From positions 1-22,212 of IMG/VR virus record IMGVR_UViG_3300030110_001547: a stretch of DNA of 22,212 nucleotides; one strand, written 5' to 3'. Positions within the stretch are counted from its first letter, which is position 1. Each line of letters starts with the position of its first letter. Shown piece by piece: positions 17,045 through 22,212 of this stretch. A model generated the notes under the pieces. That model saw nothing but the letters and a program-made list of their open reading frames with translations. It did not search any database and was not told where the DNA came from. The position numbers were made by a program, and so were the translations under genes. This DNA is from a virus.

Positions 17045-18930
17045 TGGCAGTAAAAGTAGTTGATGAAAATGAAATAATATTAAATGGTGTTTACTACCGT
17101 GTATCTAATCCTGTAAGAAGATTTATTACAAGTCAGTTTCCCGGCAAGATTACTCTTGGTGATTACAACCTAGAGTCAAACCCTATTACATCTACGTTTG
17201 TATCTAGTGACCACAGAGGTGGTATAGGTATAGAACGTATGGACCCATCAAAAGATTTAGATAGAGTCTGGTGGTCTACTGGGCAACTAAGACACAAAGA
17301 CCACTTTGTTTTACCGAAGCTAGCAGTTGCTAGTGGTAGTGACCCTGACACAACCTTAGAACAATTTTTAACCTTTAAAGGGGTATTGTATGCAGCAGGA
17401 GGAGGATTCCTGCATACATACAACACAAGTGATTCATGGGATGATATTACAGTGTCAACAACAACGCCAATCGATAACTCAACAGATGCTGAAGTTGGTA
17501 TGGTAAATGGTGTTTCAACGGCAGTTTTCGCCAACAAGAGAGGTGTTTATTACAGCACAACAGGTTCTGGTTGGGCTTCAAACTCAACTGCAAGCACACC
17601 GTTTATAGCATTTTTTAAAGACCAAATATATGCAATAGACAAAGACGGACAACTAAGACGGTCATCTGATTTATCAGGTAGTTGGACTAACGATGCTACT
17701 TTAAAATTAGATGATGATTCAATAGTAGGTCTTATTGTTGCAAGAAATGCAAGTCAAGAAAGAGTCTTATACGCAGTGACTCAACAAGGTTTATATGTGC
17801 ATGATGATGCTAATACTAGATTTATCAAAACAGATTTTATTATTCCTAAAGGTGAAAACAATGGAATAGGAACAGCAACATGGAGGGGTAGTATTTACTA
17901 TCCTTCAAACATGGGTTTATTTAAAATAAATGTAGGAAGAGATGCAACAGTGGTTACAACTGTTGGTCTTGATAAAGATGATGGTGTTCCACAAGTTTAT
18001 AGAGGAAAAATTACAAAGGTTATTCCTACACTTAACGAGTTATTGTTAGTTGTAAATGCACAAGAACAAGACACGACACCACTTACAACACGAATTCATA
18101 ATACAGCCGGAAGCAGGTCAAGACAGAATGTTCATGTCGGTGGAGGTCTTACAGGTTTTTCTTATGTTGCAGCTTTTGATGACAGAGGCTATGAAATAAA
18201 ACATATTACAGGTTCTAGTTCAGCAGGTATTACAGGTGCATTTGTTGGCACAGACCAAAACAAATACAGGCTGTGGGTAAACTATGACAACAATGCTTAC
18301 TTTGTAAATTTATCAACAGATGTTATTAATCCAAGTCAGATTGCTGACCAAACTTATGCAAGTTCAGCAACTCTTGAAACACCATATTTTGATGCAAACG
18401 TTATTGGTCAAGACAAAGTAGCACTAGCACTTAGAGTAGAAACAGAAAATCCTACAACTGATGAAACTGTTACAGTCTCATACGCTACAAACTACAATGA
18501 TACTTTTACAGCTTTATCTGCAATATCAAGCACTGGCGAGACAGAATTTAAACTACCATCTAGTGCAAATCCAATTGGGATAGAGTTTAGAAGTATAAAA
18601 TTTAAGGTGGCACTAGCAAGAGGCAGCACAAACACAAACAGTCCTGACATGATAAAACTTGCTTTACTATTTAAAAAAACATTACCAGTGCAGTTTGGTT
18701 TTGATGTTCTTCTTGATTTAACTAATGACCACAAAGGTAAAACAATAAGAGACTTGCAAGCTGCAGTAGATACTGCAATAGCAAATAAAACTCTTATGGA
18801 ACTTACTTACCGTGATGATTCCGGTGGCACTAGAAATTACTATGTCACCGTGCTGAGTGCACAGGCTCTGGAGGAAACTGGGTTAAACGAGAGGGCACGT
18901 TTTAGATTAACGTTAAGTGAGGCTGTGTAG
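17044..18930 (+). CDS. Beta-propeller-like tail nozzle protein, 628 aa
   Basis: Probably the nozzle at the tip of a short tail. ATG 17044 overlaps the previous stop by one base and is preferred over an adjacent TTG at 17041. Residues about 110-310 contain repeated blade-like units: GVLYAAGGGFLHTYN, GVYYSTTGSGW, QIYAIDKDGQLRRSSD, VLYAVTQQGLYVHDD and SIYYPSNMGLFKIN. These hydrophobic-YA-x-G strands are the usual signature of propellers. The remaining 300 residues are beta-rich, with an AYFVNLSTDVINPSQ region and a C-terminal strand set ending in ARFRLTLSEAV. Short-tailed phages often place a propeller-bearing nozzle beside the adaptor, which matches the order here. A host-binding role for the propeller is possible. 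Confidence 0.7.
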   Translation: MAVKVVDENEIILNGVYYRVSNPVRRFITSQFPGKITLGDYNLESNPITSTFVSSDHRGGIGIERMDPSKDLDRVWWSTGQLRHKDHFVLPKLAVASGSDPDTTLEQFLTFKGVLYAAGGGFLHTYNTSDSWDDITVSTTTPIDNSTDAEVGMVNGVSTAVFANKRGVYYSTTGSGWASNSTASTPFIAFFKDQIYAIDKDGQLRRSSDLSGSWTNDATLKLDDDSIVGLIVARNASQERVLYAVTQQGLYVHDDANTRFIKTDFIIPKGENNGIGTATWRGSIYYPSNMGLFKINVGRDATVVTTVGLDKDDGVPQVYRGKITKVIPTLNELLLVVNAQEQDTTPLTTRIHNTAGSRSRQNVHVGGGLTGFSYVAAFDDRGYEIKHITGSSSAGITGAFVGTDQNKYRLWVNYDNNAYFVNLSTDVINPSQIADQTYASSATLETPYFDANVIGQDKVALALRVETENPTTDETVTVSYATNYNDTFTALSAISSTGETEFKLPSSANPIGIEFRSIKFKVALARGSTNTNSPDMIKLALLFKKTLPVQFGFDVLLDLTNDHKGKTIRDLQAAVDTAIANKTLMELTYRDDSGGTRNYYVTVLSAQALEETGLNERARFRLTLSEAV

Positions 18931-19352
18931 TGGTAACCCAGAGGCAGAGGAGAACAAGCAGTGGTAGGGTCCTTGAGCCTGTACCTCAGTGGTGGACATT
19001 GGCAGGAGGAAGCCAACCAGAATACTATGTATATAAAGCATTACTTAGGACTGGAAGAAAACTAAATGTAGATTTTACTTACCAATCAAAACAATTTGGT
19101 GGGAGGCTTGAAAGAGGTGGTGCTGTAGCAGACTTTTTAATTGTATCTCCACCTTTAGGAATTAATGTTCAGAGCAAATATTATCACGCAAGAACGACTA
19201 ATCAACGAGCACATGATAGACTACAGAGAGAGCAATATGAGGCAAACGGTATTAAAATAGCTTTTATTGACGAGGATGAAGCGTTTGAAAACGCTGACTA
19301 TTATGTTAGAAGGGCGTTAAGTGGTTACACTAGCACGCCGTTAGGAGACTAA
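18930..19352 (+). CDS. PD-(D/E)XK nuclease-like protein, 140 aa
   Basis: A probable small nuclease-fold protein. The GTG start shares one base with the previous TAG. After a basic N-terminus (RQRRTSSGR), Glu31 opens a helix (PEYYVYKALLRTGRKL), then strand FTYQ. RGGAVADFLIV gives Asp68, and INVQSKYYH gives Gln81-x-Lys83, the Asp-(Gln/Glu)-x-Lys core of PD-(D/E)XK enzymes. A helix with RAHDRLQREQYEANGIKIAF and IDEDE follows, as in Vsr- and resolvase-like members. Gln replaces the more usual Glu; some active families of this fold tolerate this, so activity is uncertain. At 140 aa it is near the minimum for the fold. It sits between nozzle and second fibre, an unusual place for a nuclease. Confidence 0.65.
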   Translation: MVTQRQRRTSSGRVLEPVPQWWTLAGGSQPEYYVYKALLRTGRKLNVDFTYQSKQFGGRLERGGAVADFLIVSPPLGINVQSKYYHARTTNQRAHDRLQREQYEANGIKIAFIDEDEAFENADYYVRRALSGYTSTPLGD

Positions 19353-20467: not shown

Positions 20468-20653
20468 ATGGCAGATTTAACAGTATCAGTAACTGATGCA
20501 CAGTTAACTAGAATTAAAAAAGCGTTAACTGAAAATGGTGTGGAGCCTGATAATGCAGGCGTTGTGACGTGGTTAAACAATCAACTAAACAACAGAGTCA
20601 AAATATACGAGGAAGCTGTAGCAGTTGACTCGGTATCTGGCTTAGGACTATAA
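20468..20653 (+). CDS. Small hypothetical protein, 61 aa
   Basis: Unrecognised in function. ATG follows the fibre stop with no gap, behind AAAGGAG. The N-terminus starts with a strand (DLTVSVTDAQLTRIKKAL) and a helix follows (VVTWLNNQLNNRVKIYEEA). I recall similar short proteins near marine phage tail genes, but no role is known to me. It could be a fibre-assembly helper, like the small proteins that follow fibre genes in other phages; this is position-based inference. Confidence 0.65.
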   Translation: MADLTVSVTDAQLTRIKKALTENGVEPDNAGVVTWLNNQLNNRVKIYEEAVAVDSVSGLGL

Positions 20654-20659
20654 GGAATT

Positions 20660-20827
20660 ATGGATAACGAAATAAGTATTAAAACAGAAGATGTGCAAAG
20701 TGCAATACAAAAAAACCCAGCAATAGACTGGGCTCTTAAAGAAGAGTCATTACTAAGACAAATAAGAGAATTAAAAACTAAACTTTCTGAATATGAGAAA
20801 GACGAAGAGGAGAACAAAGATGCCTAG
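20660..20827 (+). CDS. Small coiled-coil protein, 55 aa
   Basis: A short gene of 56 codons, six bases after the previous stop, behind TAAGGA. It encodes an acidic N-terminus (DNEISIKTEDVQSAIQKNP) and then an amphipathic helix (LLRQIRELKTKLSEYEKDE) with a heptad-like Leu/Ile pattern, so a coiled coil is likely. It has no membrane span. Its stop overlaps the start of the next small basic gene by eight bases. Unlike its right-hand neighbours it is acidic overall. It could be an oligomerising partner for basic proteins; this is speculative. Confidence 0.55.
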   Translation: MDNEISIKTEDVQSAIQKNPAIDWALKEESLLRQIRELKTKLSEYEKDEEENKDA

Positions 20828-20924
20828 TGGAAGAAATTACGGTAGTGGAAGAAGTAGTGGTATGACAGCCCCAAAACCAAAGAAAAAAACGGTTAAAAAG
20901 AATGGCACCAAGAAAAAAAAATAA
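20820..20924 (+). CDS. Tiny basic protein, 34 aa, possibly the front of a longer gene
   Basis: A 35-codon frame behind GAGGAG (20809-20814), five bases from the ATG, the best start signal in this part of the window. It begins MPSGRNYGSGRSSGM and ends in a Lys-rich run, with no hydrophobic core. It overlaps the next gene by 23 bases, and nine consecutive A's (20913-20921) lie within the overlap. A +1 shift or loss of one A would join it to the next frame as one 91-aa basic protein. Whether it is separate, fused or broken cannot be decided from this copy. Confidence 0.5.
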   Translation: MPSGRNYGSGRSSGMTAPKPKKKTVKKNGTKKKK

Positions 20925-21096
20925 AACAGCCAAAGGCGTTTCACTAAATGGTTTGACTGATAAACAACAGTCAACAATGGTTAAACACGCTAAACATCAT
21001 ACTGCAAAGCATTTAAGAGATATGAAGAAACGTATGATGAAAGGTGTCTCATTTACAGCAGCCCACAAACAATCAACGAAAGCAGTAGGAAGATGA
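20902..21096 (+). CDS. Small basic protein with a His-rich motif, 64 aa
   Basis: Function unknown. It opens with MAPRKKNKTAKG and continues with LTDKQQSTMVKHAKHHTAKH, a helix, then LRDMKKRMMKGVSFTAAHKQ. The pattern of KQ...M..H..HHT.KH...M...M..G.SF..AH is one I remember from many small marine phage proteins, all uncharacterised. The five histidines lie on one stretch and could bind metal or nucleic acid. No strong ribosome binding site precedes ATG 20902, which fits either translational coupling or a fusion with the preceding frame. The stop overlaps the next ATG (ATGA). Confidence 0.7.
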   Translation: MAPRKKNKTAKGVSLNGLTDKQQSTMVKHAKHHTAKHLRDMKKRMMKGVSFTAAHKQSTKAVGR

Positions 21097-21305
21097 AATT
21101 TATAATTAAATTCTTACCACAACCTTACAAGAATATAGTTACTTTCTTTTTGGCTACACTTGAAAATGTAAACGAGAAAGAAGAATTAGAAAGAATAGGT
21201 AAACTATTTGCAGAGATTCTTGAAGATGGTTCAGTTACTCCACAAGAGTGGTTGTCGCTTGCAGGCAAAAACGGACTTGGTATACTAAAAGGTAATGGCA
21301 AGTAG
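21093..21305 (+). CDS. Small hypothetical protein, 70 aa
   Basis: Unrecognised. It starts in an ATGA overlap behind AGGAAG. It has one moderately hydrophobic segment near residues 9-23 (PQPYKNIVTFFLATL), too short and interrupted for a confident membrane helix. An amphipathic helix follows (NEKEELERIGKLFAEIL), then DGSVTPQEWLSLAGKNG, a DG-V-EW type ending I recall from small phage proteins. It is the least basic gene in the right-hand cassette. A holin-like role was considered, but the hydrophobic part is weak. Confidence 0.6.
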   Translation: MKFIIKFLPQPYKNIVTFFLATLENVNEKEELERIGKLFAEILEDGSVTPQEWLSLAGKNGLGILKGNGK

Positions 21306-21525
21306 AACCAAAAAAAAGAAAACTAAAAAAAAGGCAACCACAAGTAAACGTAAGTTTAAAAAGGTCCCTAAGACCAAAGGTGGTGTGCCTAAGAAGTACG
21401 TCAAGGGTGCTAAGAATCCAAAGGCTAGAGAAGCCGAGATAAAGAGAACTAGAAAACTTTATCGTGAAGGTAAACTTACACCTGCTATGATGGACAGAAT
21501 AAGTAAACAGAGGAGCAGAGGATAG
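21295..21525 (+). CDS. Highly basic protein with a KYVKG...YREGKL motif, 76 aa
   Basis: Overlaps the previous gene by 11 bases. The first 30 residues are nearly all Lys, Arg, Thr and Ser (ASRTKKKKTKKKATTSKRK). The second half has a defined motif: PKKYVKGAKNPKAREAEIKR, then TRKLYREGKLTPAMMDRISK. I recall comparable PKKYL-G...K..EI..T.K.Y..GK segments both as separate phage genes and as the front part of longer uncharacterised proteins of large algal viruses. The basic front part probably binds DNA or RNA. The next gene begins directly at its stop (TAGTG), and its motif would follow in those longer proteins, so the two may function as one unit. Confidence 0.7.
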   Translation: MASRTKKKKTKKKATTSKRKFKKVPKTKGGVPKKYVKGAKNPKAREAEIKRTRKLYREGKLTPAMMDRISKQRSRG

Positions 21526-21851
21526 TGTCAGCAGGAAGATATAAAAGTATTCCCGGAGCAAGCAGGTACTCTAAGTCTACCTTAGACAAGGTATACAAGA
21601 GAGGACTTGGTGCTTACTACTCATCTGGTAGTAGACCAAAAACAAGTGCTCATGCTTGGGCTATGGGAAGAGTAAAATCTTTCGTCACTGGTAAAGGTGG
21701 TGCAAGAAAGGCAGATAAAGATTTACTTAGAGGTGGTAGCAAAAAGACCACTGCAAGAAAGACTACTGCAAAGAAGACTGCTAAGAAAAGAACTACCAAG
21801 AAAAGAACAACTCGTAGAAAACGAGTAAAGACTATGGGTATGGGTAGTTAA
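21525..21851 (+). CDS. GAYYSSGSRP-motif protein with histone H1-like tail, 108 aa
   Basis: GTG start at the previous stop, behind AGAGG. Residues 1-65 form a compact conserved-looking part: RYKSIPGASRYSKSTLDKVY, then RGLGAYYSSGSRPKTSAHAW and MGRVKSFVTGKGGARKADKD. The GAYYSSGSRP...W..xRv.SF..G.GG.RKAD core is one I recall from uncharacterised proteins in phages and in large algal DNA viruses; I cannot give the family number with confidence. Residues 73-100 switch to Lys/Arg/Thr repeats (KKTTARKTTAKK, TKKRTTRRKR), like the tails of bacterial H1-like proteins, so DNA or RNA binding is likely. Possibly packaged with the genome, by inference. Confidence 0.75.
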   Translation: MSAGRYKSIPGASRYSKSTLDKVYKRGLGAYYSSGSRPKTSAHAWAMGRVKSFVTGKGGARKADKDLLRGGSKKTTARKTTAKKTAKKRTTKKRTTRRKRVKTMGMGS

Positions 21852-22166
21852 ATGGCTCATGATAGTAGAAAGAAATCCATGCTTAAAAAGTATGGTCTTA
21901 AAGGTGTAAATAAAGCTAAGAGAACACCAAGCCATCCTACAAAGTCACACGTTGTTCTTGCACAAGAAGGTCATACACTAAAACTAATTAGGTTTGGACA
22001 GCAAGGTAAACGTGTAGGAACACTAAAAGGTACAGCAGGTAAACCAAAGAAAGGTGAGTCTGCTAGAATGAAAGCTAAAAGAAAATCATTTAAAGCAAGG
22101 CACGCTAAGAATATTGCTAGAGGTAAAATGTCAGCAGCTTGGTGGGCAGATAAGGTAAAGTGGTAA
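21852..22166 (+). CDS. Basic protein with FGQQG...KSFKARH...SAAWWADKVKW motif, 104 aa
   Basis: ATG directly follows the previous stop (TAAATG). After a basic lead (DSRKKSMLKKYGLKGVNKAK) comes HVVLAQEGHTLKLIRFGQQG, a strand pair, then a Lys-rich linker and KAKRKSFKARHAKNIARGKM leading to SAAWWADKVKW at the end. I recall the order FG..G, basic RH segment, then S..(Y/F)W....(K/L)W from small phage proteins and from algal giant-virus proteins of unknown function. It is probably a compact nucleic-acid-associated protein, but no catalytic residues are evident. With its two left neighbours it forms a set whose members all seem to have counterparts in large algal viruses. Confidence 0.75.
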   Translation: MAHDSRKKSMLKKYGLKGVNKAKRTPSHPTKSHVVLAQEGHTLKLIRFGQQGKRVGTLKGTAGKPKKGESARMKAKRKSFKARHAKNIARGKMSAAWWADKVKW

Positions 22167-22212
22167 TGCCAAAGCCAAAAGGTAAAAAGAAATATAGTAC
22201 AAAGCAAAAGAA
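22166..22212 (+). CDS. Start of another basic protein (cut by window end)
   Basis: ATG 22166 overlaps the previous TAA by one base. The 15 complete codons read MPKPKGKKKYSTKQK, again very Lys-rich, and the frame is open at the window edge. It continues the run of basic genes. Nothing more can be said about its length or role. Confidence 0.5.
   Translation, partial: MPKPKGKKKYSTKQK

Follow-up and report, generated by a model that had tools for sequence, protein, structure and literature searches.

The internal head proteins of phage T4 are small, basic, late products that lie inside the head. Related in sequence to one of the genes described here is ORF125 of Vibrio phage ICP1, which is located in the ICP1 head block, with the major head/decoration genes on one side and the terminase on the other. 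It contains an S78_2/XkdF protease domain (PF14550, residues 36-160, E 6.6e-10) and is labelled 'capsid protease' in many later ICP1 records. Small, basic proteins of the phrog_7595 type are encoded by HMO-2011, by SIO1 and other cobaviruses, and by S-CBS2, S-EIV1 and the CRP phages, where they are hypothetical or unannotated. A third related group is found in the Kyanoviridae, in which HTVC008M gp130/gp131 and Melnitz gp18 carry modules that recur, as separate genes, in the locus analyzed below. For the DUFs concerned, no paper on function was found in the searched literature, in which one giant-virus genome paper mentions a DUF incidentally. Virion proteomics, DNA-binding or host-target data for any homologue were likewise not found in that literature, which included few subscription journals.

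We examined a window of 22,212 nt from a marine phage, positions 1-22,212 of the IMG/VR virus record IMGVR_UViG_3300030110_001547, read on one strand. Its last 1.4 kb (20820-22212) contains seven overlapping or abutting genes, all on the + strand, here called the cassette and named by product length. They are p34 (20820..20924), a Gly/Lys-rich peptide gene that overlaps both an upstream 55-aa gene and p64; p64 (20902..21096), which is phrog_31838-like (E 4.8e-6); p70 (21093..21305); p76 (21295..21525), which is phrog_38321-like; p108 (21525..21851), which has a GTG start; p104 (21852..22166), of family phrog_7595; and p48 (22166..22212), which is truncated by the window end and encodes a basic protein of 48 aa when whole. 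The families of p64, p76, p108 and p104 had been catalogued before, without function. As the initial annotation stated for the basic genes, neighbors are tightly packed: from the 55-aa gene to the truncated gene the gaps are -8, -23, -4, -11, -1, 0 and -1 nt, i.e., six of seven junctions overlap and one abuts.

The same annotation placed the cassette right after fibre genes, which was not borne out. Two short genes with acidic products of 61 and 55 aa (pI 4.5; 20468..20827, + strand), which stand outside the basic set and are retained in the closest relatives, lie between the putative 370-aa 'fibre' gene and p34. The fibre label itself found no profile support, and a close relative of the 370-aa gene had no PHROG match. 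Further upstream, a 140-aa basic gene (18930-19352) is flanked by tail-type genes and weakly resembles REase_MTES_1575 and HNH/homing endonucleases (E 0.025-0.1); it is a possible small nuclease within the structural block.

The region beyond the window end is visible in a 37.7-kb IMG/VR contig (L087) with 99.9% identity over the cassette, in which p48 is complete at 48 aa. Downstream of the cassette, L087 encodes first a 378-aa protein and next a CxxC protein of 48 aa; the ORFs beyond these are on the opposite strand and, unprofiled, look like DNA-metabolism genes. The cassette thus stands at the end of the late (virion-gene) block. The 378-aa protein (L087 6847-7983) has a hydrophobic, Lys-rich N-terminus and is conserved in close relatives, with no match in PHROG or NCBIfam profiles.

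The claim that six of the last seven genes are packed with Lys and Arg was confirmed. The five complete basic proteins have a pI of 11.4-11.7, with 27-41% K+R and 0-5% D+E, and p70 (pI 6.2) is the non-basic exception inside the cassette. Products of the upstream genes range from pI 4.1 to 9.4. To judge how unusual this is, K+R counts were set against those of all segments of equal length in the 6,895 aa that the upstream genes encode. Three proteins exceed the richest upstream segment (p76, 31 vs 19; p108, 33 vs 24; p104, 30 vs 23), and for these the concentration of charge is unusual, as had been proposed. For the shortest two complete basic proteins the claim is weaker: p64 only equals the upstream maximum and p34 is one below it, so taken singly they are not exceptional in charge.

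Since close relatives retain the cassette reading frames, we regard these frames as genuine. The p34 frame is kept in four relatives (L006, L007, L088 and L089), and in two others (L092 and L095) its site is occupied by peptides of other composition that are equally basic. Its sequence diverges among relatives, while its position and Gly/Met/Lys character stay. p70 is also retained in close relatives. In alignments of relatives, p104 keeps certain aromatic, Gly and Pro residues without exception, and p108, p76 and p64 each have a conserved core, with the motif LTxRQ..TMxKHxKHHTxKHxxxMxxxMxxGxSFxxAHKxxxKxVGK in p64. For p48 the motif is KYSxKQKKLARVAxPRDKITGADFKKL. No match to p34, p70 or p48 was present in the family catalogue. 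The cassette consists of several families rather than one, and its members belong to a recurring toolkit of short, conserved late genes rich in Lys and Arg that marine phages carry.

The protein p104 matches phrog_7595 over the full profile (positions 3-96 of 96, E 1.2e-34), and the phrog_7595-type proteins of HMO-2011, the cobaviruses, S-CBS2, S-EIV1 and the CRP phages align with it over most of their length at about 37-71% identity. Among the loci inspected, the cassette neighbors of p104 are absent from these phages; P-HS2/MED4-184 is the exception. Foldseek comparison of the p104 model with viral models gave, below close relatives, ICP1 ORF125 (prob 0.75) and a PBSX XkdF protein (0.66), a lead that sequence searches then confirmed. 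The C-terminal 78 residues of ORF125 (184-261) match phrog_7595 at positions 9-96 of 96 (E 5.8e-11). When stand-alone and large-phage p104 copies, but not ICP1, were used to build a profile, it recovered ORF125 at E 1.2e-10 among 20,145 ORFs, and 109 of its 111 matches below 1e-3 were p104 homologues. In the reverse direction, tblastn with the ORF125 tail alone retrieved the small p104-type proteins of CRP-2 (1e-11) and S-H1 (7e-4), and S-H1 was also recovered by a search starting from p104. A further match of ORF125, at residues 175-267, is to phrog_220 (E 4e-8), a family annotated as 'minor head protein and DNA pilot'; p104 itself reaches only E 0.012 with the same part of that profile.

From the profile and tblastn matches to the ORF125 tail we conclude that p104 corresponds, by well-supported homology, to the C-terminal module of an XkdF-type capsid maturation protease, present here as a free-standing copy. 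The ORF125 match covers the profile of the p104 family nearly end to end, whereas p104 is its own gene without a protease domain: no PF14550 match was found for it in Pfam, and only the C-terminal phrog_7595 module is in common with the XkdF/S78_2 protease. The AlphaFold2 model of p104 (mean pLDDT 80) is a mostly confident mixed fold with a helix, a beta-hairpin and two C-terminal helices, and Trp, Gly and Pro residues are strictly conserved. Against the PDB, neither Foldseek nor VIA-align gave a hit to p104 at E < 0.001 (best VIA Z 2.8), and profiles of p104, p108, p76 and p64 had no significant match among the sequences of solved structures. As far as we found, the tie between phrog_7595 and the protease tail is new, as are the reading of p76-p108 as a split DUF5824 and the recurrence of basic mini-genes as a late toolkit. 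With this tie, work on cultured phages and on ICP1 has a definite starting point, and two questions become testable: whether these are head-interior proteins, and what the protease tail does.

Two observations on p104-type proteins were set aside. The label 'HVA1 family protein' of the CRP-901/902 proteins receives no support from Pfam for the CRP-902 one. In one contig (L039 5983-8664), the p104 frame continues into a product of 893 aa in total, whose repeats are Cys-rich and secreted-looking; this may be a genuine fusion or an assembly chimera, and being a single contig it was not used as evidence.

The neighboring p108 matches the C-terminal part of DUF5824 (PF19141) at positions 70-124 of 127 (E 1.2e-10; 42.1 bits, gathering cut-off 25) as well as phrog_28338 (E 5.5e-15). 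By itself p108 does not give a full-length DUF5824 match, and the alignment identifies it as the C-terminal half of this domain. AlphaFold2 predicts a helical core with a low-confidence K/T/R-rich tail (mean pLDDT 71). With VIA-align the best score was Z 4.3; the matches, for example EF-Ts, RNAP omega and a ribosomal protein, reflect common helical arrangements and were not counted as evidence. The upstream partner p76 has the conserved core VPKKYVxGAKNPxxREAEIKRTAxLYRxGKLTPAMMDRISKQRSKG. It precedes p108 in 98 of the 103 unique p108 loci among the viral matches listed, and in 86 of these 98 the two genes are within 5 nt or overlap, so p76-p108 is a near-obligate two-gene unit.

When p76 and p108 were joined, the DUF5824 match began at profile position 1. 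In light also of the fixed adjacency of the two genes, the pair is probably a split DUF5824, in which p76 would provide, as its own gene, the N-terminal half that p108 lacks. In bit score the joined pair from the window showed no gain (40.8 bits vs 42.4-44.7 for shuffled controls); the joined pair of HTVC111P scored 40.4 bits vs 33.6 and 34.9 for its controls. A linker-histone match (E 0.022, under the cut-off) arose only in the artificial join of the two HTVC111P genes and was ignored. Against bacterial genomes, the p76 profile gave two good matches, one beside host genes. The latter is in a 263-kb contig of an uncultured SAR116 single cell (L235 1-12189, CACBIM010000001.1), where a late region with p76-p108, p64 and p48 adjoins ABC-transporter-like genes. 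This arrangement suggests an integrated SAR116 prophage or a chimeric contig; no tRNA was found at the locus.

In large phages the modules of p108 and p104 occur together. We found 55 ORFs of the large-phage type that carry both, in proteins of about 400-990 aa that often contain cytidyltransferase domains, and such fusion links the two window proteins. In Kyanoviridae-like contigs DUF5824 resides in large proteins, with a cytidyltransferase domain in 17 of 40 carriers. HTVC008M gp130/gp131 and Melnitz gp18 have the p108-like and p104-like modules on neighboring genes or on one gene; unlike in the window, their p108-like module is fused to cytidyltransferase. A p76-like motif ('GTQPAKYY...') in large-phage proteins had weak profile scores (best 13.4 bits) and is not claimed.

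HTVC008M gp130 (the cytidyltransferase) and gp131 are encoded in a replication/metabolism region away from the head genes, so the modules are not confined to head proteins. This location, the cytidyltransferase fusions in T4-like phages, the high charge and the low-complexity K/T/R tail of p108 would all suit late intracellular binders of nucleic acid, which organize replicated phage DNA, or act on RNA or ribosomes, and do not enter the head. We consider such a role unlikely, though worth keeping in mind, as the homology to a capsid protease and to a minor head/DNA-pilot family points to the head instead, and there is no meaningful HU, H-NS or histone match for the window proteins. Searched against Pfam and NCBIfam at E up to 1, these proteins gave a single exception, p108 with an Rv3852-family profile at E 0.23, far under the cut-off.

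Gene neighborhoods in other phages also include head genes. In P-HS2/MED4-184 the order is head morphogenesis - 63 aa - p76 - p108 - p64 - p104 - 223 aa - major head protein, and in KBS-S-2A p104 lies between the genes for head morphogenesis and the major head protein; both are cultured siphophages. The p76-p108 pair follows a portal homologue at one locus (L203), and in phage DSL-LC01 DUF5824 is found three genes after the portal. In the cobaviruses SIO1 and ICBM2, as in Vibrio phage D274, the position of p104 in the late block is terminal or nearly so. Recognized head genes are within 3.5 kb of 18 of the 103 p108 loci, a count that may miss many head genes of these phages because they escape recognition.

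Lysis genes are more often seen nearby: a recognized holin, lysozyme or M15 peptidase gene is within 3.5 kb of 60 of the 103 p108 loci, and in HTVC026P, HTVC111P and HTVC106P the cassette-type genes are next to lysozyme or M15 peptidase. The cationic proteins could thus serve lysis, some of them like disruptins, which are short amphipathic antimicrobial helices in phages without spanins (PMC12819732), by disrupting the outer membrane once holin and endolysin have done their work. Late structural genes commonly have lysis genes as neighbors anyway, and the P-HS2 and KBS-S-2A genes are in the head block. The predicted mixed fold of p104 with its beta-hairpin and strictly conserved Trp, Gly and Pro also fits poorly with such helices. 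We rate a lysis function for the cassette as distinctly improbable. For some members a disruptin-like role is possible; for p104 and p108, the occurrence of their modules in a capsid protease and in large proteins with cytidyltransferase domains counts against it.

The initial annotation offered three readings of the basic genes: a packaged DNA-condensing set, a late nucleic-acid-binding system acting on host DNA or RNA, and internal head proteins delivered with the genome. The head-related one has gained support, since p104 is a homologue of the protease tail, its module in ORF125 matches a minor-head/DNA-pilot segment, and the P-HS2/MED4-184 and KBS-S-2A genes are positioned in the head block. 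In view of the late position and the capsid-protease and minor-head links, our tentative best guess, held at somewhat less than even confidence, is that the cassette encodes late accessory modules of prohead assembly or of the capsid interior that contact nucleic acid or scaffold by charge. The proteins would presumably be expressed late and enter, or act on, the forming prohead. Their conserved cores might dock on scaffold, portal or shell, and Lys/Arg surfaces and tails would hold on to packaged DNA or to acidic faces of the scaffold, helping to organize the capsid interior; some proteins may exit with the DNA. In this picture p76 and p108 would function as the two halves of a single protein with p104 alongside, and p34, p64 and p48 would be smaller charge-bearing partners. 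The likeness to the T4 internal head proteins, in being basic, small and late, is an analogy only. What has been established is the location, homology, gene coupling and fusion; late expression, head entry, contact with nucleic acid and joint action are inferred.

How far the genes work together, as the initial annotation argued from shared composition and tight coupling, can be judged from their recurrence. The families are widespread, with at least about 600 stretches in viral contigs. Cultured representatives are P-HS2/MED4-184 (L002), with p76-p108-p64-p104 together; HTVC111P (L168), with p64-p76-p108; HTVC026P, with p76-p108; and HTVC106P, with a p104 homologue (gp30) whose neighbor gp29 looks like p48 by eye. 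In tblastn against phage records, a p76 relative had no match and a p64 relative one weak match, a result to be read with the low-complexity filter in mind, which probably masks Lys-rich queries. Gene order is stable for p76-p108 only: p64, p104 and p48 accompany this pair in several different orders and are often absent, and most p104-seeded loci lack p76-p108. A joint role is accordingly firm for p76-p108 (98 of 103 loci) and looser for p108 with p104 (the 55 fused ORFs). The cassette as such is not conserved in order, yet small basic families still cluster as a class.

That clustering bears on whether the genes are simply independent, with the Lys-rich composition being typical of short late proteins in AT-rich phages and joint function limited to p76-p108. 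The variable order of p64, p104 and p48 and the many p104 loci without p76-p108 agree with this. Against it, another recurrent basic family is located within 1.5 kb at 67 of 80 p104 loci and 77 of 80 p108 loci, compared with about 1% of distant positions. As the distant-position contrast is inflated by synteny, less basic small families were used as a second control. Small conserved basic families have a density of 0.62 per kb within 1.5 kb of the p104 and p108 anchors, compared with 0.31 and 0.26 for their less basic counterparts; the latter cluster there too, via synteny, but roughly half as densely, and their density declines less steeply with distance. Given also the strongly conserved cores and the p108-like/p104-like fusions, we find such independence quite unlikely.

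Clustering of small basic ORFs around the anchors revealed further recurrent families, including unnamed ones. Among them are half of DUF5872 (a sub-threshold Pfam match, E 7.5e-5) and a weak DUF6312 match. A wider proposal would be that small marine phages encode basic head modules (split DUF5824, phrog_7595, possibly split DUF5872, DUF6321 and others) as separate, exchangeable mini-genes, that larger phages fuse them into capsid proteases or multi-module proteins, and that all belong to a common capsid-interior toolkit organizing packaged DNA. We rate this generalization as rather unlikely in its full form.

Several of the neighboring families have features of their own. Two small basic families near p108 match DUF6321 (L131 879-1151, E 9.6e-13; L116 819-1118, E 1.9e-19) and have an RRxSFxAR-like motif in common with p104 (KRKSFKAR). 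In Roseobacter phage CRP-1, a DUF5872 protein seems, by eye, to be divided between two small basic genes, gp59 and gp57 (L003 3225-3353 and 3817-4074), much as DUF5824 would be between p76 and p108; a metagenomic family similar to gp57 matches positions 51-110 of DUF5872 with a score just below the cut-off. Finally, unnamed small basic proteins with 28-31% K+R adjoin the p104 homologue in ICBM2 (gp30, L242 5425-5706) and S-CBS2 (gp045, L240 5534-5848).
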